From positions 62,001-126,000 of the forward strand of contig NZ_FQZQ01000009.1 of NCBI RefSeq assembly GCF_900142085.1: 64,000 bases of DNA. Reading direction: 5' to 3'. Below are positions 34,885 to 49,577 of the stretch, piece after piece. The notes under the pieces are model-generated. The model made no database searches. It saw nothing but the letters and a program-made list of their open reading frames with translations, and had not been told where the DNA came from. Numbering within the stretch: the stretch's first letter is position 1; each line of letters begins with the position of its first letter. Both the position numbers and the translations under genes were made by a program. The stretch is from Shimia gijangensis (GTDB taxonomy: Bacteria > Pseudomonadota > Alphaproteobacteria > Rhodobacterales > Rhodobacteraceae).

Positions 34885-36111
34885 ATGCCGCCGGAAAACA
34901 AAAGTTTCCTGACCTATGCTGAGCGGAGATTCCGGCTGAGCGGCAAAGCTCTCATTGAAAATGGGCATCCGTATTTTGTACCAACAGATACGTTAGAAGA
35001 CTCGTCTGCTCAATGGCCGGACGGCTATCTCAGCATGTCGCACTACGACTATCTTGGCTTGATGCAAGACCCTGAAACAACCGGAGCCGCAAAGCTGGCT
35101 ATTGATCGCCATGGCACAGGTGTTGGCGGGTCTCGCTTGGTGGGCGGCGAGCGTTCAGAGCACCGGGCTTTCGAAAATGCGATGGCTGAATTTCTGGGCG
35201 TGGGTGGCGTCTTAACCATTATTTCCGGGTATTTGACCAATTTCTCTCTGATTGGCCATGTGTTGGGTTCAAAGGATTTGGTGATCGCGGATGAGCTTTC
35301 ACACAACTCGATCATCATGGGCTGCAAAGCAGGTCGCTTCGATTTTCAGACCTATCCGCACAATGATCTTGACACGCTGGATGCCTTTTTGACCGAAAAT
35401 CGGGAAAAATATGCCCGAGTTCTGATCGCGACAGATGGCTTGTTTTCGATGGATGGCGATCTGACGGATCTTCCGCGTTTGCTGGAAGTAAAAGAACGCC
35501 ACGATGCCTGGCTTTTGTTGGACGAAGCGCATTCTTATGGTGTTCTGGGACCTACCGGCAGAGGATTGTGTGAACATTTTGACCTGGACCCAAAACGCGT
35601 AGAGCTGACCGTGGGCACGCTGTCAAAAAGTTTTGCGTCGTCAGGTGGTTTCATCGCCGCCGAAGGTGAAGTGATTGAATGGTTGCGGTTCACTCTGCCC
35701 GGATTCGTATTCTCGGTTGGATTGCCACCGGCAACAATCGCAAGCGCCCATACGGCGCTGGACAAGCTACAATCTGAACCATGGCGTGTGACCAGATTGC
35801 GCAACAACTCGCGTCACTTCATGCAAGCCGCTCAGGCCGCTGGTCTCGACACCGGTACCGCCATTGGCGAAGCCGTAGTGCCCATTCTGTTTGAAACTCC
35901 GGAAGAATGCGTTTTTGTCGCCGAATCTCTGATGGACTCCGGAATTTACGCACCGCCAGTCGTTCACGTCGGAATTCCCAAAGATCAGCCTCGAATTAGG
36001 TTTTTCATTTCGGCATCTCATACAGAAAACGATCTGAATCGTGTTGTTGCGGCAGTCACTGAGGCTTTGGAAACGTGCCGTTCAGGCGTAGCTCGGATCA
36101 GTGCCGAGTAA
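34885..36111 (+). CDS. Alpha-oxoamine synthase, probable serine palmitoyltransferase
   Basis: A 408-residue PLP enzyme of the family containing serine palmitoyltransferase, KBL, BioF and ALAS. Seen are TGVGGSRLVGGERSEHRAFE, the PLP-stacking His140 in ELSHNS, ATDGLFSMDGDLTDLP, LLDEAHSYGVLG (Asp213, His216) and the PLP lysine K248 in GTLSKSFASSGGF. BioF is possible from sequence alone, but no bio genes are here. The KDSR-like reductase, inositol phosphate synthase and CDP-lipid genes argue for condensation of an acyl-CoA with serine to a 3-keto sphingoid base. CGGAGAA precedes the ATG, and the stop overlaps the next start (TAATG). Confidence 0.85.
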   Translation: MPPENKSFLTYAERRFRLSGKALIENGHPYFVPTDTLEDSSAQWPDGYLSMSHYDYLGLMQDPETTGAAKLAIDRHGTGVGGSRLVGGERSEHRAFENAMAEFLGVGGVLTIISGYLTNFSLIGHVLGSKDLVIADELSHNSIIMGCKAGRFDFQTYPHNDLDTLDAFLTENREKYARVLIATDGLFSMDGDLTDLPRLLEVKERHDAWLLLDEAHSYGVLGPTGRGLCEHFDLDPKRVELTVGTLSKSFASSGGFIAAEGEVIEWLRFTLPGFVFSVGLPPATIASAHTALDKLQSEPWRVTRLRNNSRHFMQAAQAAGLDTGTAIGEAVVPILFETPEECVFVAESLMDSGIYAPPVVHVGIPKDQPRIRFFISASHTENDLNRVVAAVTEALETCRSGVARISAE

Positions 36112-36740
36112 TGACGTCACCGCAAATACCGAAACGTCGCGCCCTGATCGGTGCCATTTTGGCTGCGTGTCTTGCATGTATTTTGCCAAACTCGTCTCCC
36201 GCCGACCCAAGTCTGAATCTGACTCGGTCAGAGACCTCTGCCAGCTTGCCCAAAATTCAGCCAACCTGGAAGACGCCAAGCGATCAGAACATGGTGTTTT
36301 ATCTTCAGCGGTCGATGAACCGGAACACAGTTGTCTATACCACACAGTACGACCCGAAAGGGGCGCTGAAAAAAGTCCCCATCAAAGCGTATTGGCGACG
36401 CTACGCCGAACAGGGTCAAACACGCGCGCTGAAGTGGATCGAACGCAAGTTCGCCTATGGTGTAAAATCCCGGCAAAACCAAAATGATAAGATCTGGGCT
36501 GTTCGCTTCGCGGCTTTGTCGAATCTGCCATTGGAATTGCGTCATACCGGGCCAAATTCAGCTGCATTGTGGGCACGCATAAACAACCGTGACTATAGGC
36601 TGATTTATGGCTATCTAGACCTTGACGAAAGTGGATTGATTACACGAGTTGTGCAACTGCGCCTCGTCACGTTTGATCCAACTTTGAATAAATACGTAAC
36701 ACATCTAATTTCTGTTTCCGATGGGGACATCCGCGAATGA
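36111..36740 (+). CDS. DUF4833-like exported protein
   Basis: A 209-residue protein. Residues 1-30 look like an export signal, with LAAC at 17-20 that could be a lipobox, so it may be a lipoprotein. The mature part contains MNRNTVVYTTQYDP, VPIKAYWRRYAEQGQTRALKWIERKFAYGV and DYRLIYGYLDLDESG. From memory this matches DUF4833, a family with no assigned activity. It overlaps the upstream gene by 1 base and the inositol phosphate synthase by 4 bases, so it is certainly co-translated with the lipid genes. It may act on the lipid or its precursor in the periplasm; that is inference. Confidence 0.7.
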   Translation: MTSPQIPKRRALIGAILAACLACILPNSSPADPSLNLTRSETSASLPKIQPTWKTPSDQNMVFYLQRSMNRNTVVYTTQYDPKGALKKVPIKAYWRRYAEQGQTRALKWIERKFAYGVKSRQNQNDKIWAVRFAALSNLPLELRHTGPNSAALWARINNRDYRLIYGYLDLDESGLITRVVQLRLVTFDPTLNKYVTHLISVSDGDIRE

Positions 36741-37837
36741 CAAACAACAATAAAATCCGCACGGCGATTGTAGGTGTTGGCAACTGTGCCAGCTCTTTGA
36801 TCCAAGGAGTTTCTTACTGCCGTGCTCTTGGTGCCAATGCGATTGGCGTTAGCTTTCCAGAATTGGATGGCTATACGCCAGCTGATGTTGAGCTGGTGGC
36901 TGGCTTTGATGTCGATGCCCGCAAAGTTGGCTTAACCTTGGGGGAAGCCGCTTTTGCAGCGCCAAATTGCACCGAGCAGTTTCACACTGACCTGGCCGAG
37001 CAATCAGCGATCGTCCACCGCGGACCTGATCTGGACGGAGTTGCGGCTCATATGCTGACAAAACCCGAGGATCGCAGTTTTAGGCTCTCCAAAACACCGG
37101 CACTCAACAAAGAGGGTGTGGTTCGGGTTCTGCGTGAAAGCGGCGCAGAAGTGATGATCATCTTCCTGCCTGTTGGGTCTCAGAAGGCTTGCGAATTTTA
37201 CACAGAATGTGCGATCGAGGCTGGCGTTGCCTTGGTCAATGGCATTCCAGTGTTCATTGCGTCAAACCCGGTTTGGGCTGCCAAGTTCGAAGCGGCTGGC
37301 CTCCCGGTTCTTGGGGATGATTTCAAGGCACAGCTGGGCGCAACCATTGTTCACCGTACATTGGCAAATCTGGCGGATATGCGCGGCGTTGAGATTGACC
37401 GCACATATCAGTTGAACGTCGGTGGCAACACAGATTTTCTGAACATGTCCGAACATGGCCGTCTGGAACTCAAACGTGAATCCAAGACCGAAGCGGTTCA
37501 GGCCGCCATGGAAGAACGGCTTGAAGAAACAGACATTCGCATTGGCCCATCGGATTATGTGCCATGGTTGAACGACCGAAAAGTCGCTTATGTCCGCCTT
37601 GAAGGGCGTTTGTTTGGTGGCGCACGCACCAATATCGAAGTGCGGCTGGACGTCGAAGACAGCCCCAATGCGGCCGCAGAAGCGCTGACCGCGATTCGAT
37701 GCGCAAGAATTGCCCGCGACCGTGGCCTTTCCGGACCTGTGAACGCAGCAAGTGCGTTTTTGTTCAAGCATCCTCCGGCGCAGGTTGAAGACACAGACGC
37801 GCACGATCTGTTGCTCGGCTTTGCCAACGGATCCTAA
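36737..37837 (+). CDS. Inositol-3-phosphate synthase (MIPS)
   Basis: A 366-residue NAD-dependent enzyme converting glucose 6-phosphate to 1L-myo-inositol 1-phosphate in the cytoplasm. GVGNCASSLIQG (residues 13-24) is the NAD-binding loop of the short actinobacterial/archaeal-type MIPS. VNGIPVFIASNPVWAAKF, GDDFKAQLGATIVHR and NVGGNTDFLNM are family blocks, and the active-site lysine region ESKTEAV is followed by GPSDYVPWLNDRKVAYV. The length equals the mycobacterial enzyme. MIPS is unusual in Rhodobacteraceae, and here it supplies inositol phosphate inside a lipid gene cluster. Start overlaps the upstream stop (ATGA). Confidence 0.95.
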   Translation: MTNNNKIRTAIVGVGNCASSLIQGVSYCRALGANAIGVSFPELDGYTPADVELVAGFDVDARKVGLTLGEAAFAAPNCTEQFHTDLAEQSAIVHRGPDLDGVAAHMLTKPEDRSFRLSKTPALNKEGVVRVLRESGAEVMIIFLPVGSQKACEFYTECAIEAGVALVNGIPVFIASNPVWAAKFEAAGLPVLGDDFKAQLGATIVHRTLANLADMRGVEIDRTYQLNVGGNTDFLNMSEHGRLELKRESKTEAVQAAMEERLEETDIRIGPSDYVPWLNDRKVAYVRLEGRLFGGARTNIEVRLDVEDSPNAAAEALTAIRCARIARDRGLSGPVNAASAFLFKHPPAQVEDTDAHDLLLGFANGS

Positions 37838-37841
37838 GCAG

Positions 37842-38636
37842 ATGAAGCCGGGGTTTGTCACCGGCGGCTCTAGCGGTATCGGCTTAGCCGCCGCACGTCT
37901 GATGGCGGAGTCAGGACGCGACATCGCGCTGTTTGCGCGGGACGAAAAACGGCTTGCGGACGCCAAACAGGACATCCTGTTTGCCTCGCCCGGCGTAACT
38001 GTCTGCACCTATCCTGTGGATGTCAGTGATCGAGTAGCCATTTTTCAGGCGGTAGACGCGGCCATCGCAGAACTGGGAACGCCCGGACTGGCCATCGCCA
38101 GCGCAGGTATTGCCACGCCGGGGCTTTTTACCGAACAGCCTTTGGATTTGCATGAAGAACATATGGCCATCAATTATTTTGGAGCGCTGTATTTCACACA
38201 TGCGGTCACCGGGCCCATGAAGACAGCTGAGGCCGGGCAGATCGGATTGATTTCTTCCGGCGCGGCATTTTTTGGAATCTATGGTTACGGTGCTTACGCG
38301 CCGTCAAAATTTGCCCTGCGCGGTTTGGCCGAAGTCTTGCAGGTTGAGCTGGATCCCATGGGCATTGGCATTACGCTTTGCTATCCGCCAGACACGGACA
38401 CGCCACAGTTTGTAGCTGAAAAACGCACCAAGCCCAGAGCGACACAAAAAATCACCGAGGGTGGCGGGCTTTGGAGTGCTGATGGCGTGGCCAAGGCTTT
38501 GTTGGATGGCATGGAAAGAAATCAATTCATTGTCGCCCCGGGTGTCCAGATGAAGGCACTAAACCGTCTGACCAGCCTGATTGCCCCCGTGTTGCGATGG
38601 CATCAGCGACGGATCATCCGCAAGGAAGCACTATGA
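37842..38636 (+). CDS. SDR, 3-ketodihydrosphingosine reductase-like
   Basis: A 264-residue short-chain dehydrogenase. The NADPH motif TGGSSGIG is at residues 7-14, catalytic Ser138/139, Tyr152 and Lys156 (YAPSKFALRGLAEVLQ). PPDTDTPQF (182-190) and EKRTKPRATQKITE match the eukaryotic KDSR (FVT-1) signature PPDTDTP-x-E-x-TKP-T-x-I. The likely reaction is reduction of the 3-keto sphingoid base to dihydrosphingosine. It differs from the epimerase-like CerR reductase of Caulobacter. The C-terminal basic helix could tie it to the membrane. It starts 4 bases after the MIPS stop. Confidence 0.85.
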   Translation: MKPGFVTGGSSGIGLAAARLMAESGRDIALFARDEKRLADAKQDILFASPGVTVCTYPVDVSDRVAIFQAVDAAIAELGTPGLAIASAGIATPGLFTEQPLDLHEEHMAINYFGALYFTHAVTGPMKTAEAGQIGLISSGAAFFGIYGYGAYAPSKFALRGLAEVLQVELDPMGIGITLCYPPDTDTPQFVAEKRTKPRATQKITEGGGLWSADGVAKALLDGMERNQFIVAPGVQMKALNRLTSLIAPVLRWHQRRIIRKEAL

Positions 38637-39517
38637 ACGCTCTTTCCGTCAACGACGTCGTGCTAACCACCGCCATTTTGCTGGTGATTGGTGTAGGAAT
38701 GGTGTCTTCACTGCTGCTCGTTCCGGGTAAGCGCGAAGCGGCGCGCGATACGTTTCAGGCCATGCTAAGCATGCTGATTGTTGCGGGCACCATTCTGATG
38801 ATGTTTTGGGGCGGAGCCCTAACGCTTGTGCCATTTCTGCTGATTTTGGCTTTTCGGACAGGATATGAGGCAACCCATGTCCGGCTGGGTGCCCCCGCAG
38901 CGGTCAAAGTTGGTGTTGGCGCCGCAGTGGCGGCAGCAATGGCAATGTTATCGCCTATCCTGACAATTGGACTGGCCGGTCTGTGGCTTTTGATTTTTTC
39001 CCGACGGGTGTTTGTGCCAAACCCTTCGACTGGCAGGTTGCACGCATTGGCCGAAGTGGCCCTGTTTCCCGTAATCCCGATGGCAATTCTAGCATTCTCC
39101 GCCCTGAACCCTGACCTGCGGCCGCTGGTCCTGATCATCTATGTTCTGGTCGAGCTGTTTGACAGCTGCGCCTATGCAGTGGGTAAGTTTCTTGGTCGCA
39201 CTCCGGCCTTTCCTGTGCTCAGCCCACGCAAAACTGTTGAAGGGCTGATCGGAGGGGCATTGTGCCTGATGGTTGTGGTCGCGGGTGTCACCTTTTGGGC
39301 AAATCTGCCGGTTTGGCCCGCGATCTTGCTGACCGCTGCGGCCTGCGGCTTTGGGGTCGCCGGAGATTTGGGAGGATCGCGGCTGAAACGGGCCGGCGGG
39401 GTCAAGGATTTCCCGGCCGTTCTGAAAAAACAAGGCGGGGCTTTGGATATTTTTGATTCCTGGATTGCCGCCGGTGCCGCAATTTCATTGCTTATCACCC
39501 TGCAGAACCTGCTTTGA
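38633..39517 (+). CDS. CdsA-like phosphatidate cytidylyltransferase
   Basis: A 294-residue membrane protein with about seven or eight spans. The CdsA pattern ELFDSCAYAVGKFLGRTPAFP and SPRKTVEGLIGGAL is clear (residues 174-210), as is GDLGGSRLKRAGGVKDFP (245-261). In the C-terminal signature, the usual HGG-x-x-DR-x-D is QGGALDIFD (His to Gln267, Arg to Ile273). CdsA makes CDP-diacylglycerol from phosphatidic acid and CTP, so this may be a specialised paralogue for another phospholipid acceptor. Start overlaps the SDR stop by 4 bases. Confidence 0.82.
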   Translation: MNALSVNDVVLTTAILLVIGVGMVSSLLLVPGKREAARDTFQAMLSMLIVAGTILMMFWGGALTLVPFLLILAFRTGYEATHVRLGAPAAVKVGVGAAVAAAMAMLSPILTIGLAGLWLLIFSRRVFVPNPSTGRLHALAEVALFPVIPMAILAFSALNPDLRPLVLIIYVLVELFDSCAYAVGKFLGRTPAFPVLSPRKTVEGLIGGALCLMVVVAGVTFWANLPVWPAILLTAAACGFGVAGDLGGSRLKRAGGVKDFPAVLKKQGGALDIFDSWIAAGAAISLLITLQNLL

Positions 39518-39557
39518 AGCTCTTGCCACAGCGGTCCGGCAATAGGAAACTCTGGGC

Positions 39558-40667
39558 ATGATCCGTTTTGGCCCTGTCTTTCGCATTCTTGCTATTCCGA
39601 CGCTGGCACGTCTGGCATTGCTTCTGGCACTTGTCGTCGCAGTGTTTATGGCCGAAAGCTTTACCTCGCTTTTAGAAGAAGCGCTGCGCAACGACGCTGA
39701 GAGCAGCGATGTGCTGTGGCTGCTAACTCTGGAAGCACCTGAGATCATGGACCTGGCGCTGGCGTTGGGCGTTCTGATTGCCGTCTATTTTGCAGTTCTG
39801 GACTCGCGGAACCGTGGCGAATTAGTCATTCTGTCAGTCGCTGGAGTTCGCTGGACCAAAGTGGTGAGTTTTGCCCTGCTTTTTGGGCTGGTTGGCGGGG
39901 TCTTATCGATCTGCATCGCGGGATATCTCGTGCCCCAAGCCCGTTACATCGAACGGATTTCGATGACGAAGCTCAAGGCCGACTTCATACTTCGCCAAAT
40001 CACCACTCCCGAAGGACACAGCTCACGGCTGACCATTCTGGACACCACATTCATTGCAACGTCTCCGACCTCTGACAAACAAGAGCGTGGCCAGCTTTTC
40101 GTGTTTCAACCGGGCATCGCCGACACTTGGAGAGTGAGCCAATCTCATGACTGGACCGTCGTCGGACCCGATCTGAATGGAAGCCACAATATCAGACTGG
40201 AGTCTTTGCGCGCCTATGATGGCAGCTTTGGAGCAGACCCGCCCCGTGCGGTCAGTGCTTTTGGGGTTAACAGTGGCGAAATGGCGTTTCGCCTAAGCGA
40301 TGTGGTTCACGACCCGGATTATTCGATCCAAGAGGATGAGAGGCTATTAAATTTCTCGCCAGAAGAGATGAAACATGCCGCCAGTGTTGGAGCGCGGGCG
40401 CTTTTGGTGCCTATGGCCGCATTGCTGGCTTTGGTGGCCGTACTGGCAGGTGGGGCGGGTTTCGCGCGGTTTCTAACTCTGCCCCTTGCCTCGATCATTT
40501 TGCTGTTCTGCGATGTTGCCGGGCGCAGTTTGATTGCTGAAGCCAGTCTGTCCCTGTCGCCATGGGTGCTTTCGGTTTTGGCGGTGTTTGCGTATCTTGG
40601 CCCCCCGCTTGGCTATGTTCTGTGGCGCGGAGAGGCCATCATGAAACCCGTAAAGGCAAGCACATGA
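39558..40667 (+). CDS. LptF/LptG-family permease (first of pair)
   Basis: A 369-residue permease with three N-terminal membrane spans (about 16-37, 62-84, 100-124), a periplasmic jellyroll-like region (residues 130-275) and three C-terminal spans. ELVILSVAGVRWTKVV is the cytoplasmic coupling helix that contacts the ATPase in LptF/G. Conventional LptF/G export lipopolysaccharide with LptB. This pair is followed by no LptA or pepA neighbours, but by lipid biosynthesis genes, suggesting a lipid other than LPS. It overlaps the second permease gene by 4 bases. Confidence 0.83.
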   Translation: MIRFGPVFRILAIPTLARLALLLALVVAVFMAESFTSLLEEALRNDAESSDVLWLLTLEAPEIMDLALALGVLIAVYFAVLDSRNRGELVILSVAGVRWTKVVSFALLFGLVGGVLSICIAGYLVPQARYIERISMTKLKADFILRQITTPEGHSSRLTILDTTFIATSPTSDKQERGQLFVFQPGIADTWRVSQSHDWTVVGPDLNGSHNIRLESLRAYDGSFGADPPRAVSAFGVNSGEMAFRLSDVVHDPDYSIQEDERLLNFSPEEMKHAASVGARALLVPMAALLALVAVLAGGAGFARFLTLPLASIILLFCDVAGRSLIAEASLSLSPWVLSVLAVFAYLGPPLGYVLWRGEAIMKPVKAST

Positions 40668-41794
40668 ACGCCCGTGTTTTCACCGGCATAGCCTCTCGCA
40701 ATATTGCGGCCACCCACCTCAAATCAATTGCTTTTGTGACATTTGTGCTGCTGACAGTGGCTATTGCTATCGATCTTGCACAAACTATCGAAGACATCCG
40801 TACTAAGGCCGCTGATGAAAACATCTCATTGCTGCCACTGATGCTGGAGTATTTGCTTTACCGATCGGCCGATATTCTGGCGCGCCTTCTGCCGATGGCC
40901 TGTCTCGCAGGGAGTTTCATCGCAGAGCTGCTGCGTCACCAACGTATGGAAAACGTCATCCTGGGCGCGGCAGGAGCACCTCCGACATTGATCTTTGCGG
41001 CTCTTGTGGGTGTTGGCGCGGTAACAGGAACTTTGCAGGCCACATTAGAAGGCTGGGTACGTCCTGCCGCTGTCTTTGCTCAAGTGGATTTGCAGATTGG
41101 GACCTATGCCAAACGCTTTCGACAAGGCGAGCTTGGAACCCAGTGGATCCTGGAGGGTGACCGCGCGATACAAGCGCGCATTCTACGCAGTGACGATCCG
41201 AAATTACACGATCTGCGCGTGTTCGAAGGTGTGGGAGATGTAGACCTTCGCCGGATCATATCAGCTTCGCGCGCAGAGCCTGCTGAGGCCGACGGGCAGT
41301 GGACTTTGTTTGATGTAACCGTCTGGCAAGGGTCAGAAGGAAACACCATGTTCCCGACGCAATATGAACAGTTGTCGTTGCCTCTGGCGCTCACAAAAAC
41401 ACACCTGCAGTATTTTGGAATTCTGGGATTTTATCTGCCCAACGCACCATTGCACCAGATTGCCGCCGTGAAAGGCGCAGAACAAACTCCAGATGCAGAG
41501 ACAGCCGTCATGCGCCGTTTGGTGGCCTGGATATTACCCGGTGTGTTTGCCTTTCTTGGTGCAAGCCTTGCGCAAGCCGGGCACAATGGCCGTTTCTTTG
41601 CTTGGTGGCGCCTGCTGTCGCTTGGGGCGTTTGGATACATCTGCCTGGTGTCTGTGAAATCCTTCTGGGCGCTGGGGGAGTTCGGAGTTCTATCGCCGCT
41701 CGCCGCGACAACGACGCCGCTGATTTTTGCAATGCTCGCGGGCATCCTGATCCAGCTGAGATTGAATGGCGCGCCCCGTCGGCAGAAGCCTTAG
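40664..41794 (+). CDS. LptF/LptG-family permease (second of pair)
   Basis: A 376-residue permease of the same architecture as the gene before it. TM1-3 lie around residues 20-42, 65-90 and 100-125, then a periplasmic domain, then three C-terminal spans. HQRMENVILGAAGAPPTL is the coupling helix. No ATPase is encoded nearby, so it would rely on the housekeeping LptB or another ATPase. Its stop overlaps the convergent nucleotidyltransferase gene by 4 bases. Together with the preceding gene it forms a heterodimeric half-transporter. Confidence 0.83.
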   Translation: MNARVFTGIASRNIAATHLKSIAFVTFVLLTVAIAIDLAQTIEDIRTKAADENISLLPLMLEYLLYRSADILARLLPMACLAGSFIAELLRHQRMENVILGAAGAPPTLIFAALVGVGAVTGTLQATLEGWVRPAAVFAQVDLQIGTYAKRFRQGELGTQWILEGDRAIQARILRSDDPKLHDLRVFEGVGDVDLRRIISASRAEPAEADGQWTLFDVTVWQGSEGNTMFPTQYEQLSLPLALTKTHLQYFGILGFYLPNAPLHQIAAVKGAEQTPDAETAVMRRLVAWILPGVFAFLGASLAQAGHNGRFFAWWRLLSLGAFGYICLVSVKSFWALGEFGVLSPLAATTTPLIFAMLAGILIQLRLNGAPRRQKP

Positions 41795-42540
41795 CACCGA
41801 CCATCACGCTTTTGAATAAGCGGCCAGATATCATCGGTTGCATGGGCATACATCACTTCGTCATCAATCTCGGTCCACACCAGATCCGGAATGAGGTGGC
41901 AATCCACGTCATGATCTTTAGACAACCGGATCATAGCCAATTCATATTCAGATTTGGGATTGGCCGACAGGCAAGCTTCGGCAATGCTTTTTAGCGCCTC
42001 GGTTCCTTCAGGAGAATAGCAGCTCAGCCCCACAAATTCGCCATAGTGGTCCCGATCGTGCGCCGCGGCGTCTTTGGACATCGTATCGAGTACGGGGTTG
42101 CCTGCCTCTGAAGAGCGGGCCCAAGTATAATATTCGTCCCCTGTATCGGTTGGGCCGGAAACCCAAATGCGCGAATGATGTGCTACCACGGGATCAAGCG
42201 CCGCGCGCTCATAGATCAAATCAGATTCCAGAAGAAGAAAAGGTCCTTGCAAGTCTTCCAGCCCCGTCATCAGAGATCGCAAACTACCCGTGGTCGCGTA
42301 CAGCGGATTATGCACCAGCTCAACGCCGTCAACATCTTCAAAGGCAGCGTTGTACTGGTCGGCTAAATGGCCTGTCACAATTCGTACTGACTGAATGCCG
42401 CGCTCCTGCAATAATCGCACTGATCTTTGTACAAGTGGCGTACCAGCAACGCTGATGAGCCCCTTGGGCGTAAGTTCGCCTCGGGGCCCCATACGGATGC
42501 CGCGCCCGGCGGCGATAATCAGGGCTTTCAACTCAGTCAT
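41791..42540 (-). CDS. NTP transferase, phosphocholine/inositol-phosphate cytidylyltransferase-like
   Basis: A 249-residue nucleotidyltransferase. ALIIAAGRGIRMGPRGELTPKGLISVAGTPLVQRS near residue 5 is the nucleotide loop with catalytic Lys. NPLYATTGSLRSLMTGLED near residue 78 and FLLLESDLIYE near residue 101 recall LicC and similar choline/AEP/inositol-phosphate cytidylyltransferases. The substrate is unproven. In context, activation of inositol 1-phosphate or another alcohol phosphate as a CDP derivative would feed the CDP-alcohol transferase at 45388. It is the only minus-strand gene within the cluster and diverges from the PimA-like gene. Confidence 0.75.
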   Translation of the reverse strand: MTELKALIIAAGRGIRMGPRGELTPKGLISVAGTPLVQRSVRLLQERGIQSVRIVTGHLADQYNAAFEDVDGVELVHNPLYATTGSLRSLMTGLEDLQGPFLLLESDLIYERAALDPVVAHHSRIWVSGPTDTGDEYYTWARSSEAGNPVLDTMSKDAAAHDRDHYGEFVGLSCYSPEGTEALKSIAEACLSANPKSEYELAMIRLSKDHDVDCHLIPDLVWTEIDDEVMYAHATDDIWPLIQKRDGRC

Positions 42541-42630
42541 TTGATGAACTTATCCAAATCTGCTCGAATACGAGGGCGAGCCTATGGTAGGGCTTGGTTA
42601 ACCTCAAGCTTCACGCAACTCAATTCGTAT

Positions 42631-43752
42631 ATGAAGATAGTTCAGATCAGCCCCTATGCCATGGACCGCCCCGGTGGGGTTCAAACGCATGTGCGTGATT
42701 TGTCGTCCTGGCTGCGCCGACAGGGTCATGAAGTGCGTATTATCGCACCCTCCGGTCATTGCGAAGAAGATGACATAACGCAGCTTGGATCCTTCCGGTC
42801 CATGGCTCTTCATGGCACGGCCTTTGAGATTAGCCGAGCCTCGCGTGCAGAGCTGAAGGATTGCACCCGCTCTTTGCAGGATTGGGGCGCCGAGGTCGTG
42901 CATTTGCATACGCCGTGGACACCTATGATGGCCTGGCAACTGTGGCGCCAGCTAAAGCTACCTTCGATTGCAATGTTTCATGCCACCCTGCCAGACGACA
43001 CGGGTTTTGATCCATTCACATGGTATATTCGCCGGGCCGCCCGCTATTTCCACAAGCGGCTCGATTGTGTGACTGTGCCCTCGCTCGCTCCACAAGCGCA
43101 ATGGCAGCAACTACAGGTGCCCACAGTCCCGGAAATCCTGCCACCTACAATCGATTTGTCCCGGTGGCACGCTGCGCGCACACCTCGATCCGGCCCTCTG
43201 CATGTTCTCTATATGGGCCGACTGGAAGAGCGCAAAGGTGTGCGCGTTCTGCTAGAAGCCTGGCCGAAGATCGCTGCAGTCTTGGAAGGTGCCCGATTGA
43301 CGATTGCAGGGGGAGGGGAACAGGAAGCCCAATTGCGCGCTCTTGTAAGTTCTCAGGCGATACCCCGCGTGACTTTCTTGCCTCCGCCATCAAACGCCCA
43401 GGCCCCTGCCCTGATGGCCAGCGCCGACGTGTTCGCCGCACCGGCAACGGAAGGCGAGAGCTTTGGCTTGGTTCTGATCGAAGCGATGGCGGCAGGGGCG
43501 TTGCCGATTGCCGCTGCCAATGCCGGGTTCACTACTGTGCTGACGGGCGCAGGAAGTGATCTTTTGGTGCCTCCGGGCGATGCAGGCGCTTTTGCCAAAA
43601 AGATATTGTCCATCGCGAGTGACAAAGAACGTCGTAAGGGATTGCAATTCTGGGCAAAAACTCACGCCAGTGCCTTTGATGTCGGCACCTGTGGCCCCGC
43701 ATTCCTCAGCCTGTACCAAACCGCTCGGCAAAGGGCCCTGACCCACCGCTAG
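42631..43752 (+). CDS. GT4 glycosyltransferase, PimA-like
   Basis: A 373-residue GT-B enzyme. The N-terminus KIVQISPYAMDRPGGVQTHVRDL, the segment WLRRQGHEVRIIAPSG and the EX7E motif ESFGLVLIEAMAAGALPIAAANAG follow mycobacterial PimA (phosphatidylinositol mannosyltransferase) closely in order and spacing. VLYMGRLEERKGVRVLLEAWP is the second domain. In mycobacteria PimA adds mannose from GDP-mannose to inositol on phosphatidylinositol at the inner leaflet. Next to MIPS and a CDP-alcohol transferase, glycosylation of an inositol lipid is likely, but the donor is unknown. Start by analogy; its ribosome-binding site is weak. Confidence 0.78.
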   Translation: MKIVQISPYAMDRPGGVQTHVRDLSSWLRRQGHEVRIIAPSGHCEEDDITQLGSFRSMALHGTAFEISRASRAELKDCTRSLQDWGAEVVHLHTPWTPMMAWQLWRQLKLPSIAMFHATLPDDTGFDPFTWYIRRAARYFHKRLDCVTVPSLAPQAQWQQLQVPTVPEILPPTIDLSRWHAARTPRSGPLHVLYMGRLEERKGVRVLLEAWPKIAAVLEGARLTIAGGGEQEAQLRALVSSQAIPRVTFLPPPSNAQAPALMASADVFAAPATEGESFGLVLIEAMAAGALPIAAANAGFTTVLTGAGSDLLVPPGDAGAFAKKILSIASDKERRKGLQFWAKTHASAFDVGTCGPAFLSLYQTARQRALTHR

Positions 43753-43834
43753 TTTCGGTTTTTAAACCGCCTGATTGGTTGCGCTCGCGGCCATTATTGT
43801 GCCAGCTTGCAGCGAGCCAACAAAGGGGACTGGC

Positions 43835-45376
43835 GTGCAACACGGCGATCTTGTGATCACTGCTGATTTTGGCACTTCGGCTGTAAAAGTCGGGGTGGTT
43901 GATGGCGATCTGACGCTGCTTTCCAAGGCAACTGAAGCCTATCCACTAAATCTTGCTCCCGGAGGCATTGCCGAGCAAAATCCGGCTGATCTTTGGGCTG
44001 CGCTGGCGCGCGCATTGTCGCACCTTCGACACGACATCCCGAACCTTAAAGAGCGGGCAACGACTCTGGTGTTCAGCAGCCAGATATGCGGGCTGATTTG
44101 CGCGGATGTTAATGGGCGACCTTTGATGCCCTGCATGACGTGGTTGGACAAAAGAGCAGCCCAAACCGGGCGCGACCTGATAGGGGGGTTCCCTTCTGCC
44201 CATGGATACCAGATTGGCAAACTGCTGCGCTGGTTGCGGATTGCCAATGGCGCCCCGGCGAAAAATGGGATGGACCCAATTGCCAAGATACTGTGGGTCG
44301 CCAAACACAAACCTGATATTTCCGCTCAGACCCGTTGGTTTCTGGATGTCAAAGACTGGTTGGTGCACCGCGCCACTGGGCGTTTCACGTCATCAGCCGA
44401 AAGCGCGAATGTAACATGGCTGTTGGATTCGCGCCCCGGCCGCGAGGGATGGTCTAAAACTCTGTCGAAAATGACGGGGATTCCTTTCGAAAAACTACCC
44501 GAGATTGTTGATGCAACGGACGTTGTTGAAACTCTCACGGCTGAGGCCGCGGGTGAGTTGGGGTTGAGCAAAGACGCCATTGTTTTGGGTGGCACATCTG
44601 ACGTGACCGCAGCGGCCTTAGGATCGGGAGAGGTTGACGACGGTGCTTTGCATATCTGCGCGTCAACAAGCTGTTGGATATCCGGCTTTATGAGCGGTCG
44701 GCGGCTGAACGTGCCCAATTCTTACGCCACGATTTCAAGCAGCCTGAGCTTTCGTCCTCTTTTGGTGGCCTCTCAGGAAAACGCGGGCTCTGCGATGGAA
44801 TGGGCCGTTCGGATCAGCGGAGGGCAAACTGAAGGTGAGAACCTGGCCAATGCGTTTGACGACATGGGCACTCCATTGCCGGATGACCCCTACTTTGTGC
44901 CCTGGCTTGCCGGAGAGCGCGTTCCGATCGACAACGATCTTGTGCGCGGAGCATTTCATGGGCTGGCGCTGCACCACGATCCGCGCGCGATGCGGCGGGC
45001 AACGGTAGAAGGCGTGGCGCTCAACATGCTGTGGTCCTACTCAAAGGTGACGCGTGAAAAGGGTATTCGCATGGACGGACCTTTGTCGATGGTGGGCGGC
45101 GTTGCCGCAAACCCCGATTTTGCGCAGACCGTTGCGGACGCTTTTGATCGCGAGATCCGTGTTGGAGAAGCCCGTCATGCCGGTGTTTTGGGCACAGCAA
45201 CTCTTGCCGCGAAAGTGCAAGGCTGGGCGGCTGACCCGTTTGAGGCCGCAGCCCGTTTGCGCACACACACGACTGCGCACTATGTTCCAAATCCTGACCG
45301 TGTCGAAGCGCTGGCAATGCGAAACACACGGCTTGAAAAAATCCGGCGGGACCTGATCCGCAGTTATCGCCCTTAA
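43835..45376 (+). CDS. FGGY-family carbohydrate kinase
   Basis: A 513-residue kinase with N-terminal ATP site ITADFGTSAVKVGVVDGDL and the FGGY signature region LSMVGGVAANPDFAQTVADAFDREI near the C-terminus. TWLDKRAAQ and ICGLICADVNGRPL precede the sugar-site Asp/Glu. It is xylulokinase-like, but the substrate cannot be read. The start is the GTG at 43835 with AAGGGG eight bases upstream. The longer TTG-initiated frame from 43775 adds no family sequence. It sits between the PimA-like gene and the CDP-alcohol transferase, so it may phosphorylate a sugar, polyol or inositol in lipid synthesis. Confidence 0.8.
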   Translation: MQHGDLVITADFGTSAVKVGVVDGDLTLLSKATEAYPLNLAPGGIAEQNPADLWAALARALSHLRHDIPNLKERATTLVFSSQICGLICADVNGRPLMPCMTWLDKRAAQTGRDLIGGFPSAHGYQIGKLLRWLRIANGAPAKNGMDPIAKILWVAKHKPDISAQTRWFLDVKDWLVHRATGRFTSSAESANVTWLLDSRPGREGWSKTLSKMTGIPFEKLPEIVDATDVVETLTAEAAGELGLSKDAIVLGGTSDVTAAALGSGEVDDGALHICASTSCWISGFMSGRRLNVPNSYATISSSLSFRPLLVASQENAGSAMEWAVRISGGQTEGENLANAFDDMGTPLPDDPYFVPWLAGERVPIDNDLVRGAFHGLALHHDPRAMRRATVEGVALNMLWSYSKVTREKGIRMDGPLSMVGGVAANPDFAQTVADAFDREIRVGEARHAGVLGTATLAAKVQGWAADPFEAAARLRTHTTAHYVPNPDRVEALAMRNTRLEKIRRDLIRSYRP

Positions 45377-45387
45377 AGGAGAGCGCT

Positions 45388-46005
45388 ATGATCGACGGTC
45401 TAATCAAGGACAAGATTGACCCTCTGTGGGAAGCCATGGCAACCCCGTTGGTCAAGGCCGGATGGTCCCCAAATCAGGTCACTTTTGCAGGCTTGGTTTT
45501 AGTCGTCTTGGTCTCTTTGGGTTATGTTTGGCACGGTTCACCGTTGATATATGGGCTCGCTTTGGGGGTCGCTTTTGCCTTTGACGCTCTGGACGGCGCG
45601 GTGGCACGTCGGCGCGACATGCGATCCCTGTCGGGTGGTTATTTCGATGCAGTGGTGGACCGGTATCAAGAGCTTGCTGTGCTGGGAACACTTGCATACG
45701 TCCACGATGTCTGGATTTTGGCGTTGCTGGCCTTTTCTGGCAGTGTTCTGACCAGCTATGCCAAGGCGCGTGCAGCCATCGAAATGCCCGTCAGCAACGA
45801 AAACTGGCCGGATTTCTTTGAACGCATGGAACGCGTGATCTATCTGTGTCTGGTGTTGGTTTTGGCGGGTCTGCTGCCTGCGTACAAAGACGGAATTGTG
45901 GTTGCTGGGCTTGCTGGATTTGCTTTGCTCTCACATGCCACCGCTTTGCAACGGGCAAGGCGTGCCTGGGGAATGCTGAAAGTCGAAGATCAATCGCGCA
46001 AATAG
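45388..46005 (+). CDS. CDP-alcohol phosphatidyltransferase
   Basis: A 205-residue membrane protein with the full CDP-alcohol signature: D66, D69, G70, A73, R74, G83, D87, D91 (DALDGAVARR through GGYFDAVVDR). SPNQVTFAGL near residue 27 is typical of archaetidyl/phosphatidyl-inositol-phosphate synthases. The reaction would join inositol phosphate to a CDP-lipid, or CDP-inositol to a lipid alcohol, releasing CMP. A ribosome-binding site (AGGAG) precedes the ATG. The 3' end overlaps the convergent membrane-protein gene by 16 bases. Confidence 0.88.
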   Translation: MIDGLIKDKIDPLWEAMATPLVKAGWSPNQVTFAGLVLVVLVSLGYVWHGSPLIYGLALGVAFAFDALDGAVARRRDMRSLSGGYFDAVVDRYQELAVLGTLAYVHDVWILALLAFSGSVLTSYAKARAAIEMPVSNENWPDFFERMERVIYLCLVLVLAGLLPAYKDGIVVAGLAGFALLSHATALQRARRAWGMLKVEDQSRK

Positions 46006-46751
46006 CTGCGAAGACCGCTCCAAAGATCAAAGTGATAGGCCAGAACATACCCTAGAAACGATGAAATAAGCAGAGGCTCTGTGATTGTATAGGCAATGTA
46101 GAGACCTTCGTTGATCGCACCCAAGTCAAAGCCTTTCAGGACAAAAAGCGCAAGATAGGCCACACCAAGTATGATCGGCACCCAAACGTATAGCCTTCTG
46201 AACCGGGCCATCCGGGCTGTAACCAGCGACCATTGCCGGGGTTGAGCCGCAAGTCTGCGCCCCAGAAGCTCACCGAAGACCACCACAAAAGCCTGCGAAA
46301 AAAAGAACAGATAGCTGCCTGCCATATGCATTTCGTCAAAATCCGGAAACCGATAATGGCTAAGGAGAACCATTCCAATTGAGGCAAGCCCCTGCAAACT
46401 TACAATAATCAGGCATAAAGCTGTGACGATCCGGTAGTCTCTGCGCGGAATGGCTTGACCGCCTCGTCGCAGTTCCCGCCATGCAACAATGGCCAATGCT
46501 GCAACTCCAACAAATAGGACAGGCGCGCATATCGCCATCCATTCAGCAAAAGGCTCTCCAACGATCGGATCAGAAATGGCGCGACTAATGGTTGGAGGTT
46601 CCACCGCAATGTAGTCGGGGTTGTTCTGTCCAAAGACAATCCGTGCGCGATAAATAAGGATGTTTACAGCCACGATGACGAAGCCCGTGAATGCCAAACA
46701 CAGGGTCATCAATGCGGCACTTGAGCGGGTTGGAACAAACCTGGTGGTCAT
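45990..46751 (-). CDS. Six-span membrane protein (possibly Frag1/DRAM/Sfk1-like)
   Basis: A 253-residue polytopic protein with about six spans. PPTISRAISDPIVGEPFAEWM after the first span and DEMHMAGSYLFFFSQ later recall the conserved P-IS and H-A-FF patterns of the Frag1/DRAM/Sfk1 family, members of which act in GPI lipid remodelling and lipid asymmetry. I am not certain of this. Its ATG overlaps the ABC exporter stop by 4 bases, so the two are translated together. It converges on the lipid cluster. Confidence 0.55.
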   Translation of the reverse strand: MTTRFVPTRSSAALMTLCLAFTGFVIVAVNILIYRARIVFGQNNPDYIAVEPPTISRAISDPIVGEPFAEWMAICAPVLFVGVAALAIVAWRELRRGGQAIPRRDYRIVTALCLIIVSLQGLASIGMVLLSHYRFPDFDEMHMAGSYLFFFSQAFVVVFGELLGRRLAAQPRQWSLVTARMARFRRLYVWVPIILGVAYLALFVLKGFDLGAINEGLYIAYTITEPLLISSFLGYVLAYHFDLWSGLRSYLRD

Positions 46752-48463
46752 GGCGTTTTCGCAAGTGTTCCGCGGGATTGCGGTTCATCAGAAACGATTT
46801 TTCCGGCTTCCATTTTGATCAGGCGGTCGCATTTTCCAAACTGGTGGTCATCATGGGTTACGGCAATCACCAATTGTCCGCTTGCTGCCAATTCCGGTAC
46901 CAGAACGTCGTAAAAATACGCTCTGTTGGCCGGATCCTGATCTGCCGCGAACTCATCCAGAATAATAATAGGTCGGCTCTCAGCCAGCGCGACAGCGAGC
47001 GCCAAACGCCGCCTTTGCCCGGCAGACAAGGTCAGTGTCGAAAACCGATCCTCGTGCAGGCTTACTCGGTCCGACAGTTTGAGTTCAGCAATGCGTTCCT
47101 TGAGCAGAGACACCTCTTGGTCGGTCATGCCAAACGTGCGGTCAAACAGGTGAAAACCACTGAATACTCCGGAGAACAGCTCGCGAAAACCCGCCTTGGT
47201 TTCTGGGTCCATCGATGCGCCGTCCAACAGAATTTCACCACTGTCAGGATTGCGCAGCCCTGTGATCAACCCCAAAAGCGTGGTCTTACCAGACCCGTTG
47301 CCCCCACAAATGAAAATTGTTTCCCCGGGTTTGAAAGTCAAATTGACCGGCCCCAAAACAAAGGGATCTGAATCACGGTTGCCAGCCTCGGAAACGGTGG
47401 CCATCACGTTGCGCAACTCCAGACTTTGGAAGCTTCCTCGCGGCACAATTTCACCTTGAAGGCCAGGAGATTGCATGCGCAACAATTCGGCTTCGACAAC
47501 CTGGATCCGGAAATAGGCATTTTCGGCCCGCGACATACGAGGAAATGCGTTGAACAAAAGCTCGATCGGCCCACTGGTCAGGAACAGCACAGTCAAAATC
47601 TGAAACATGACTGCAGTGTTTCCTCCGGGTAAGAGCGGAACCACAACAACAACAAAGCACAGCATAAGAACAACAGCCGCCTGACCAAAAGCTGTACTCA
47701 TAGAATACAGTTCTTCAGCGCGGTTGGCGCTCGCACCAAATTTTTGGATCACGCGCTGGGTTTCAACTTCGATGGCGTGGCGGCGCGTGTCACGTAGGCG
47801 GACTTCTTTCCAACCCGCCAGCATATCACTCACCCGGTCACAGAATTCTGCTCGGGCACGCGAGGTTATCACCATCTCTTTTCGGGCCGGGCGATCAAAG
47901 ATCAAGTATCCCAACCCGCCAAGAACCATGGCGCCAGAGGTGACGAGCGCAGCACTTGGAGAAATCCAGAACAGATATGGAACCGCGATACACACGATCA
48001 CAACCGCCTCAATGGATTCAATGACATTGATGATCGCGCCGGAAACTTCGTCAACTTCCGAGGTCATTGCTGAAAAAACCTGCCCGTGCGAACTGGACAA
48101 AAGAAAATCAATGTTGGCGCGCAAAAGGGCCCGGGACATACGCAAGCGCATGGCTTCTTTGACACGAACAATCAAACGGTGCACCCGGACCCGGGTTAGA
48201 TATCCACAAGCCAGCATCGTAATCGCCGACACCACCAACAAAACAACTGACCATCCCATACCATCGCTGGCTGTGCGCGCTGTTTCGTTTATCGCAAACA
48301 TCATAGCCGCGCGGCTAAGGCTGTTTAGAAACGTCAGAATGATGACCGGATCCCGCACAACTCCGCTCGTGACAAGCAAAGCCCGCAGGACAATCATTCG
48401 CCGGTTAATTAACTTGCGAAATCCAGCCTCATCGGGGCTGATAGCTGCATTGGAATTGTTCAA
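46748..48463 (-). CDS. ABC exporter, fused membrane and ATPase domains
   Basis: A 571-residue ABC half-exporter resembling the SyrD/PvdE type. About six membrane spans fill residues 25-310. The ATPase follows: Walker A GGNGSGKTTLLGLITGL, signature LTLSAGQRRRLALAVALA and Walker B IIILDEFAADQDP, with H-loop THDDHQFGKC. The Q-loop to signature region is intact. Members of this type export cyclic peptides or siderophores across the inner membrane. Here the substrate could be a lipid or glycan product of the neighbouring genes, but nothing demonstrates that. Confidence 0.85.
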   Translation of the reverse strand: MNNSNAAISPDEAGFRKLINRRMIVLRALLVTSGVVRDPVIILTFLNSLSRAAMMFAINETARTASDGMGWSVVLLVVSAITMLACGYLTRVRVHRLIVRVKEAMRLRMSRALLRANIDFLLSSSHGQVFSAMTSEVDEVSGAIINVIESIEAVVIVCIAVPYLFWISPSAALVTSGAMVLGGLGYLIFDRPARKEMVITSRARAEFCDRVSDMLAGWKEVRLRDTRRHAIEVETQRVIQKFGASANRAEELYSMSTAFGQAAVVLMLCFVVVVVPLLPGGNTAVMFQILTVLFLTSGPIELLFNAFPRMSRAENAYFRIQVVEAELLRMQSPGLQGEIVPRGSFQSLELRNVMATVSEAGNRDSDPFVLGPVNLTFKPGETIFICGGNGSGKTTLLGLITGLRNPDSGEILLDGASMDPETKAGFRELFSGVFSGFHLFDRTFGMTDQEVSLLKERIAELKLSDRVSLHEDRFSTLTLSAGQRRRLALAVALAESRPIIILDEFAADQDPANRAYFYDVLVPELAASGQLVIAVTHDDHQFGKCDRLIKMEAGKIVSDEPQSRGTLAKTP

Positions 48464-48519: not shown

Positions 48520-49476
48520 TCATTGCAAGTTGTTCCCGCCAACCCGCCATAGGTCACGGAAGTGTTGGATGGCTTTGGTATTGTTACGGCTTTCCAAGTC
48601 TCCGTCACCCCGGTTCAAATGTGCCAGTGCAGACTCTGTGTATTGACGGCGCCGCCTGAGCGGCAAGAAGCTCAGGCATCGTATGGGGACCACGAATTTG
48701 GCAACACGGCACAGCGCGCTGGTTCGAACATCATCCACCAGAAATGCAGCTCTTGGAGTGTCAGAAAAATCGGTCAACCTGCCGAGGTCGAAAAATCGGG
48801 GGCGCAGTGCATAGCCGAACACCCCCAGAAGCACATCAATCTCAACAGGCTTGCGCGTACGGTGGCCTCGAATTGGCGCCGGAGGCTGCTTTAGCAAGTT
48901 GGAAAGTATCGTTGTTGGGCGATCCAAGAAGTCTTTTGGAACCACCCAACCCGCACATCCCAGCGCCTTGTCAGGATGCGACGCGGCCTGCTGTTCAATC
49001 GCTGCAAGAGTGTTGCGTGGATAAATTCTGTCGTCATCCACCACCATAATCAACTGATCCGCATCTTCGGCCAAAAGTGTCGGAATGACCTTGGTGGCAG
49101 GCCCCCAATCTTCGCAACGCCGAACCACAAGGCTTGACAGATTGGTCAGGTGCTCTGGCACTTCGTAAACGCAATTCTCACGTTTAGACCATTCCGGCAC
49201 ATTGAGATAAATTCGTTTTGGTGGCCGGGATTGATCCATTAATCCCTTGAGCGCTGTATCGACAACCCCCATTCGACTGGGAATTGTCGTCAGGCTGACA
49301 ACAACATCGGATTTGCTGGTGCTGTGCTGCCACTCCCGATCCCACTCGTTAAGAGATCTCCGCCCAAGGCGCCATTCACGCCATAGGTTTCGCAAAAGGC
49401 TTTCACCCTCGAACGTATAATGAATCCAAAGCGCAAGGCCGACGCCAATTGCGACCAGAGCAAGCAACCAGTTCAT
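48520..49476 (-). CDS. Membrane-anchored GT-A glycosyltransferase-like protein
   Basis: A 318-residue protein. A single N-terminal membrane helix (residues 2-20) is followed by a GT-A-type domain: VVVSLTTIPSRMG near residue 58, a DxD-like MVVDDDRIYP near residue 143, and ALGCAGWVV. The DDD motif would bind a metal-nucleotide-sugar. The ATG at 49476 has AAAAGGAA upstream, which favours it over the longer frame from 49524. It is upstream of the ABC exporter gene with a 56-base gap and may contribute to the same product. Confidence 0.65.
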   Translation of the reverse strand: MNWLLALVAIGVGLALWIHYTFEGESLLRNLWREWRLGRRSLNEWDREWQHSTSKSDVVVSLTTIPSRMGVVDTALKGLMDQSRPPKRIYLNVPEWSKRENCVYEVPEHLTNLSSLVVRRCEDWGPATKVIPTLLAEDADQLIMVVDDDRIYPRNTLAAIEQQAASHPDKALGCAGWVVPKDFLDRPTTILSNLLKQPPAPIRGHRTRKPVEIDVLLGVFGYALRPRFFDLGRLTDFSDTPRAAFLVDDVRTSALCRVAKFVVPIRCLSFLPLRRRRQYTESALAHLNRGDGDLESRNNTKAIQHFRDLWRVGGNNLQ

Positions 49477-49577
49477 TTGCGTTCCTTTTAATGTCAGCCA
49501 AAAAGTACCAGTACGCATTGGCAAGGGCTACAATTGAGTTGCTGGGCTGATAAACAAATTCGACTTAAGAGCCTCAC

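Follow-up and report, generated by a model that had tools for sequence, protein, structure and literature searches.

A conserved gene unit of Shimia gijangensis predicted to produce and export a glycosylated inositol-phospho-sphingolipid

Gene content and conservation of the unit

The window analyzed in this work is a stretch of 64,000 nucleotides from Shimia gijangensis (family Rhodobacteraceae; contig NZ_FQZQ01000009.1, positions 62,001 to 126,000), and it contains a run of genes whose families point to the synthesis and export of an inositol-containing sphingolipid. An initial annotation had placed this gene set between positions 34885 and 46005. Each of the genes that it named was recovered in a Pfam scan as an open frame at the position and with the family given, but the end was set too early: a Frag1-type gene and an ABC exporter are also part of the conserved unit, which is 34885-48463. 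The genes of this unit, the first eleven of which are designated A to K, are as follows.

34885..36111, + strand: A, alpha-oxoamine synthase, serine palmitoyltransferase (SPT)-like, of a clade separate from Caulobacter-type SPT (Aminotran_1_2, PDB search, tree)
36111..36740, + strand: B, DUF4833 protein (PF16117, 4.9e-26; hydropathy)
36737..37837, + strand: C, inositol-3-phosphate synthase (PF01658, Inos-1-P_synth, 3.6e-34)
37842..38636, + strand: D, 3-ketodihydrosphingosine reductase (KDSR)-like short-chain dehydrogenase/reductase (SDR) (adh_short; PDB TSC10 8jat)
38633..39517, + strand: E, CdsA-like CTP:phospholipid cytidylyltransferase (CTP_transf_1; PDB CdsA 4q2g)
39558..40667, + strand: F, divergent LptF-type permease (PF03739, 1e-11)
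40664..41794, + strand: G, divergent LptG-type permease (PF03739, 6.4e-30)
41791..42540, - strand: H, PntC/LicC-type cytidylyltransferase (NTP_transf_3; PDB PntC)
42631..43752, + strand: I, PimA-like GT4 glycosyltransferase (Glycos_transf_1; PDB PimA)
43835..45376, + strand: J, FGGY-family kinase adjoining K, start codon uncertain (PF00370, PF02782)
45388..46005, + strand: K, CDP-alcohol phosphotransferase of the lipid inositol-phosphate synthase type (CDP-OH_P_transf)
45990..46751, - strand: Frag1/DRAM/Sfk1-type membrane protein, kept beside K (PF10277, 2.8e-11)
46748..48463, - strand: ABC exporter, candidate flippase (TIGR01194, 1.4e-84)

Genes A through G are adjacent and either overlap or almost abut, the overlaps with the chosen start codons being 1 base for A/B and 4 bases each for B/C, D/E, and F/G. 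The loci of homologs of A were compared for the best 80 of a longer list, comprising 19 loci with an orthologous A (T1, at least 56% alike), 18 T2 loci and 43 T3 loci. The order A-G was the same in 18 of the 19 T1 loci, which is beyond chance; in the 19th (L055), A was found alone, with the remaining genes at two other places of the same assembly. About 1.8 kb lie between A and B in the T1 locus L076. At relative loci J likewise adjoins K, and among 12 loci given for this region, all eight that extend far enough past J/K (L034, L185-L191) have an ABC gene nearby that is 39-67% alike, with the Frag1 gene present in seven of them (absent in L187).

In a survey of 248 family genomes, in which A was searched at E ≤ 1e-80, matches were found in 18, eight of these being orthologs (at least 60%; one in two pieces) and 10 being of the T3 kind (37-45%). 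K was present in 10 of the 248 genomes, and its possible role as a general housekeeping gene was rejected on this count. It occurred in all eight genomes with an A ortholog and in two of the 240 without one (hypergeometric 1.4e-13, shared descent not corrected for), and in all 19 cluster genomes searched, i.e. the eight family genomes and 11 genomes of named T1 loci. The gene families, their conserved order, and their co-occurrence are direct observations.

Enzymes and transport proteins of the unit

The closest solved structure to A in the PDB was the Sphingobacterium-type SPT (8guh, 5.7e-64). The catalytic lysine of A lies in a GT-SKS-GGF context, which we take to mark SPT, and in this region A aligns to SPT without gaps whereas its alignment to KBL is gapped. 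For D, TSC10 (8jat, 3.8e-26) was the sole match at E ≤ 1e-18 among 177635 distinct PDB sequences, and NCBIfam provided general SDR models only, those shown all being below their cut-offs. A phylogenetic tree was constructed by a quick method with SH-aLRT support from 106 rows (103 different). Among them were 18 T2 rows (48-54% alike to A) and 25 T1 rows (56-100%), three genes being represented by two T1 rows each. In this tree, the T1 and T2 rows formed one clade (support 98) and eight Caulobacter-type SPTs formed a separate clade (support 100), two of the eight passing the cut-off of NF047603, the Caulobacter-type SPT model. No match to this model at E ≤ 1e-150 was found in the window genome. 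In the excerpts by which the papers cited here by accession are represented, the Caulobacter-type (Rhodobacteria) system consists of an SPT of that clade together with AcpR, AasR, and bCerS (PMC9386255). Judged by its genes, the present unit would not be classed with that system; no acyl carrier protein (ACP) or acyl-AMP ligase domain was found in the unit genes, AcpR and AasR not having been sought genome-wide.

The gene that lies beside the T2 relative of A in Methylocella, a GNAT, was used as a query, and a homolog was present in five of five tested genomes (8 found) with Caulobacter-type SPT, at 4-10 kb from the SPT. Because of this co-occurrence, rather than from a curated model, we read this GNAT as a bacterial ceramide synthase. 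A homolog was found at 15 of 18 T2 loci, 0 of 19 T1 loci, and 2 of 43 T3 loci (L056, L079 short). The desaturases of L063 and L065, the two that were scanned, match Lipid_DES, the sphingolipid Delta4-desaturase model, and relatives of them occur at seven of the 18 T2 loci. On account of the GNAT and desaturases at T2 loci, the close relatives of A would by context act in ceramide synthesis; the window's own T1 group is without that acylation gene. The synthase of L064 is the sister of T1 in the tree, and an inositol-phosphate synthase (MIPS) adjoins it, with GNAT, ACP, CDP-alcohol transferase, and LptF/G homologs also present. L063 and L064 are rearranged cluster relatives outside T1, with MIPS near the synthase and other glycosyltransferases, L063 also carrying capsule-export and deacetylase genes. 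Some T1 loci carry an extra desaturase (Y) or a Stealth protein (Z). Y is an FA_desaturase and was rejected as a sphingolipid desaturase, as it had no PDB match at E ≤ 0.1 and no Lipid_DES match.

The T3 relatives were not counted as equal evidence for SPT because of the contexts of L100 and L111, two of three loci that were scanned (in the third, L099, the ORF picked gave no family). At L100:2184-11167 (Roseibium) the T3 oxoamine synthase comes after a fully reducing type I polyketide synthase, and at L111:7817-11197 (Planctomycetes) it is fused to an AMP-ligase and an ACP, suggesting that these two may be acyl-ACP-fed enzymes.

Of the genes for the inositol-lipid branch, C has as its nearest NCBIfam model the mycothiol-type INO1 (TIGR03450; 2.9e-114, 382 bits against a cut-off of 638). 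Profile A5 of E matches the CdsA structure 4q2g at 5.5e-16, and the KR..KD..GG..D segment is conserved; on the CdsA model E scores 68.9 of 385 bits. The NCBIfam matches of K at E ≤ 1e-5 are four, all of them inositol-phosphate transferases and all below cut-off (121.7/180, 74.5/170, 69.4/350, and 50.7/580 bits); they include archaetidylinositol-P synthase (3.3e-35), PIP synthase (8.5e-21), and the BT1523 model (3.7e-19). In the PDB, profile A4 of K identifies DIPPS (5.4e-11) and PIPS (1.8e-10). CDP-alcohol phosphotransferases carry the motif DxxDGxxAR-x8-GxxxDxxxD, which is complete in K (D66, D69, G70, A73, R74, G83, D87, and D91, invariant in 3/3). A similar motif is quoted in the excerpt of PMC9246714. 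The best full-length match of I is PimA (1.5e-40, 142.6 bits, residues 1-365 of 373; next PDB protein 5.8e-13, 51.8 bits) rather than PimB, MshA, or GlgA, and no NCBIfam cut-off was reached.

The cytidylyltransferase-like gene that the initial annotation had placed on the opposite strand is present, but it resembles the aminoethylphosphonate enzyme PntC and not an inositol enzyme. By profile A3, H matches PntC in the PDB at 1.5e-53 (185 bits), LicC at 1.7e-18, and the inositol-1-P enzyme IPCT at 4.8e-9 (39.5 bits). In PntC, Glu104 and Glu196 contact the amine of aminoethylphosphonate, the residue being Asp in LicC (PMC6697681, excerpt); H residues R16, K26, E105, and E200, invariant in 6/6, correspond to PntC Arg15, Lys25, Glu104, and Glu196. 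These scores and residues disfavor H as an inositol cytidylyltransferase, and a substrate of the phosphono- or phosphoethanolamine type is proposed. A second CDP-alcohol transferase, X, was clearly present (E ≤ 1e-50) in nine of 14 genomes searched (four of the nine supplied the query), in the window genome on another contig (G000:C36:285996-286658); weaker hits in the remaining genomes land on K or other transferases. All nine X genomes have H in their cluster loci, and among the five without X, four lack H in the locus and G491 (L046) has it. The cut-off for phosphoenolpyruvate (PEP) mutase was passed in 10 of 19 cluster genomes; in the window genome the best match was below it (2e-13, 50.6 of 319.55 bits). 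Phosphonate uptake, or another substrate of H, is conceivable. L059-L062 add an upstream PEP-mutase/nucleoside triphosphate (NTP)-transferase gene, a TPP enzyme, and a class V aminotransferase (one representative of each was scanned), in agreement with a phosphonate cap being attached by H and X. One internal TAG is present in the PEP mutase frame (L151; G488:C45:95951-96760) of G488, the genome that contains L060. The X of the window genome adjoins a gene with a caspase domain (Peptidase_C14; L206:7654-8853), and by eye a similar ORF lies beside X in L208.

F and G both belong to PF03739 and hence form an LptF/LptG family pair, although they score far below the cut-offs of the equivalog models (F 68.5/230 bits on LptF, G 91.3/240 bits on LptG). 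No LptC/LptA/LptB partners turned up within the unit, the genome not having been searched for them. The ABC exporter scores 284.7 bits on TIGR01194 against a cut-off of 286.2. B has, by hydropathy, a single N-terminal hydrophobic segment; it is beta-rich and putatively periplasmic. Its model (pLDDT 77.7) had no PDB fold match at E ≤ 0.001, and from the best one, Ups1/Mdm35 (E 0.015, TM 0.13-0.15), no function was drawn. DUF4833 was found in two of 289 class genomes (both cluster carriers, of one genus) and in 0 of 14 controls, and was not mentioned in the open-licence literature searched; it is not confined to T1, since L078 has a 33% homolog. L078 is a rearranged T2 relative with DUF4833 and an LptG homolog near the synthase and other glycosyltransferases. 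The Frag1-type protein was considered as a candidate N-acyltransferase, and its model (pLDDT 87.2) had no PDB match at E ≤ 0.001, those listed being mostly rhodopsins and receptors. Past the unit, window positions 48520-49524 (- strand) hold a 334-aa ORF without a Pfam match, of which L034 has a 59% alike copy.

The predicted product and alternative explanations

The reading that we favor, at roughly even chance, is that the unit 34885-48463 directs the synthesis of a glycosylated inositol-phospho-sphingolipid and its delivery to the outer membrane, the product being predicted from genes alone. We infer the substrates, the joining of the sphingoid base to the inositol head group, the sugar donor, and every step of transport as follows. 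A would condense an acyl thioester with serine to 3-ketosphinganine, which D would reduce to sphinganine in the cytoplasm, and N-acylation, if any, would be carried out by some other enzyme. C would produce inositol phosphate and E a CDP-activated lipid, from which K would form a lipid phosphoinositol(-phosphate). A sugar may then be attached by I, as PimA does on phosphatidylinositol, and H together with the X-type CDP-alcohol transferase encoded elsewhere in the genome may attach an ethanolamine-phospho(no)-type cap. Flipping of the lipid would be the task of the ABC exporter, and its extraction towards the outer membrane that of the F/G permeases, for which B may serve as a periplasmic partner.

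The proposal of the initial annotation that the set makes, glycosylates, and exports an inositol phosphosphingolipid thus retains its basis in the SPT-like A and TSC10-like D, in C, E, and K, in the PimA-like I, and in the LptF/LptG-type permeases of a single conserved unit; its assumption of one joined lipid holds less firmly. We have moderate confidence that base and head group are joined in one lipid, and only that, because the GNAT, a DAGK-type kinase, and a phosphatase were not found. Several observations count against the favored pathway. The lead of SPT over KBL in the PDB search with A is a narrow 12 bits (219.6 versus 207.9 bits), A misses all NCBIfam SPT cut-offs (274.4/640, 266.9/500, and 210/670), and its top NCBIfam score is for bioF (319/426, itself below cut-off). 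The ceramide-synthase-like GNAT was found in none of the eight cluster genomes and, as stated above, at no T1 locus. A DAGK-type lipid kinase (E ≤ 1e-5) was found neither in the window genome nor in seven of 10 unit-bearing genomes, so that the supply of a phosphorylated sphingoid lipid to E is unexplained; this kinase is present in two of 10 family genomes without the unit, and in the Caulobacter-type SPT genomes G412 and G285 it lies inside the SPT locus. No phosphatase to finish a PIP intermediate is found in the unit, and F/G are distant from the permease pair adjoining Caulobacter-type SPT. Lastly, genome G246 has kept B, C, E, F, G, I, J, K, Frag1, and ABC, with A and D not found (best D-like match 30%, 3.9e-16). 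As it gave no oxoamine-synthase match of any kind at E ≤ 1e-20, its assembly may miss regions.

The main rival, which appears rather unlikely, is that two products are made: C, E, K, and I would form a mannosylated phosphatidylinositol on diacylglycerol, similar to phosphatidylinositol mannoside (PIM), A and D would form a separate sphingoid lipid, and the permeases would carry one of them. The missing lipid kinase, the head-group and transport genes of G246, and the closeness of I to PimA, which acts on phosphatidylinositol, are in keeping with this. However, A and D are part of one closely packed series of genes at 18 of the 19 T1 loci, K and A co-occur, and the distance of E from the CdsA model is that expected for a different lipid substrate. 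Further, G095, with B, C, E, F, G, I, J, and K at one locus, has another synthase and reductase pair elsewhere, viz. a T3 synthase beside a D-like reductase (47%) on another contig. At that second locus (L045:7703-10540) the synthase and KDSR-like gene are preceded by an ORF whose ACP domain resembles that of a polyketide synthase.

It is improbable that A uses another amino acid (alanine, glycine, or a phosphorylated or sulfonated analog of serine), the base then not being sphinganine. The bioF score of A would agree with this, as would the presence of the cysteate fatty acyltransferase 28eh (2.6e-38) among its PDB relatives, and a phosphorylated substrate would conceivably account for the missing lipid kinase. 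SPT is nonetheless the best PDB match of A, a TSC10-like reductase lies within the unit, and the T2 synthases L063, L064, and L065, which also score highest on bioF, are found near the ceramide-synthase-like GNAT, L063 and L065 also near DES-type genes. Least probable is that H makes CDP-inositol for a CDP-alcohol transferase and K has another role, for although Heaver et al. propose such an NTP transferase and CDP-alcohol transferase route for the alternative cluster of Bacteroides vulgatus (PMC9246714, excerpt) and H weakly matches IPCT, its score on PntC is far higher, it keeps both amine-contacting Glu residues of PntC, H is absent from six loci that do have C and K (L029, L047-L050, and L052; the search for H covered these loci and not the rest of the genomes), and K is the inositol-type enzyme.

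In its fullest form, which we put forward tentatively and think rather doubtful as a whole, the favored reading would make the product a bacterial counterpart of the eukaryotic glycosyl inositol phosphorylceramides, capped with aminoethylphosphonate in some strains. Its base would be made by an SPT of a clade other than the Caulobacter type, with neither the known ceramide synthase nor the known lipid kinase taking part (e.g. charged as the 1-phosphate or left un-acylated), and it would have its own LptF2/LptG2-DUF4833-ABC route to the outer membrane.

Significance and comparison with known systems

The path of bacterial sphingolipids to the outer membrane is an open question, and according to the excerpt of a 2024 paper its authors had as yet identified no flippase or lipid transporter for them (PMC11087976). 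The present conserved unit brings genes for synthesis together with a candidate flippase and two divergent permeases, and as it is found in genera with cultured strains (Shimia, Pseudooceanicola, and Stappia), the question of transport is testable by deletion. The unit also supplies a context for the unnamed family DUF4833. Caulobacter has been added to the sphingolipid-bearing Alphaproteobacteria since a survey of 2020. In the excerpt of that survey, sphingolipids in this class appear restricted to Sphingomonadales (PMC7179689). From the present unit they are expected in Rhodobacteraceae as well and, by way of the T2 relatives, in several Rhizobiales; among the matches listed in a search of the open-licence literature, no sphingolipids, inositol type included, were reported for Rhodobacteraceae, and no unit joining SPT, a TSC10-like reductase, inositol synthesis, PimA-like transfer, and permeases was described.

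The PIM pathway of mycobacteria contains PIPS and PimA, which K and I resemble; here these are linked to SPT-like, ketosphinganine-reductase-like, and LptF/G-type genes. Glycosyl inositol phosphorylceramides occur in fungi, plants, and protozoa and belong to the same class as the predicted product, whereas the enzymes here are bacterial and the unit has no AUR1-type synthase. Inositol sphingolipids are known in Bacteroides, and BT_1522-BT_1526 of B. thetaiotaomicron and the alternative cluster of B. vulgatus likewise have an inositol phosphate synthase with a CDP-alcohol transferase (PMC9246714, excerpt), K weakly matching the BT1523 model. In contrast to these, no AUR1-type or PgpA-type domain occurs among the unit genes, and the unit itself also includes the SPT, reductase, glycosyltransferase, and permease genes.

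The initial annotation considered the combination with a permease pair to be undescribed. The full combination of genes was not met in the literature searched, but a permease pair next to such genes is on record: the SPT region of Caulobacter has LptC2/LptF2/LptG2, for which a role in transport is proposed, untested, in the excerpt of PMC11324152. The region CC_1168-CC_1152 of C. crescentus likewise contains SPT, a CdsA-like gene, a CDP-alcohol transferase, nucleotidyltransferases, and the extra LptF/LptG pair (PMC11324152, excerpt). Compared with it, the present unit has an SPT of another clade and far more divergent F/G, with the GNAT ceramide synthase and DAGK-type kinase not found in the window genome, and it has instead an inositol synthase, a PimA-like transferase, a TSC10-like reductase, and DUF4833.

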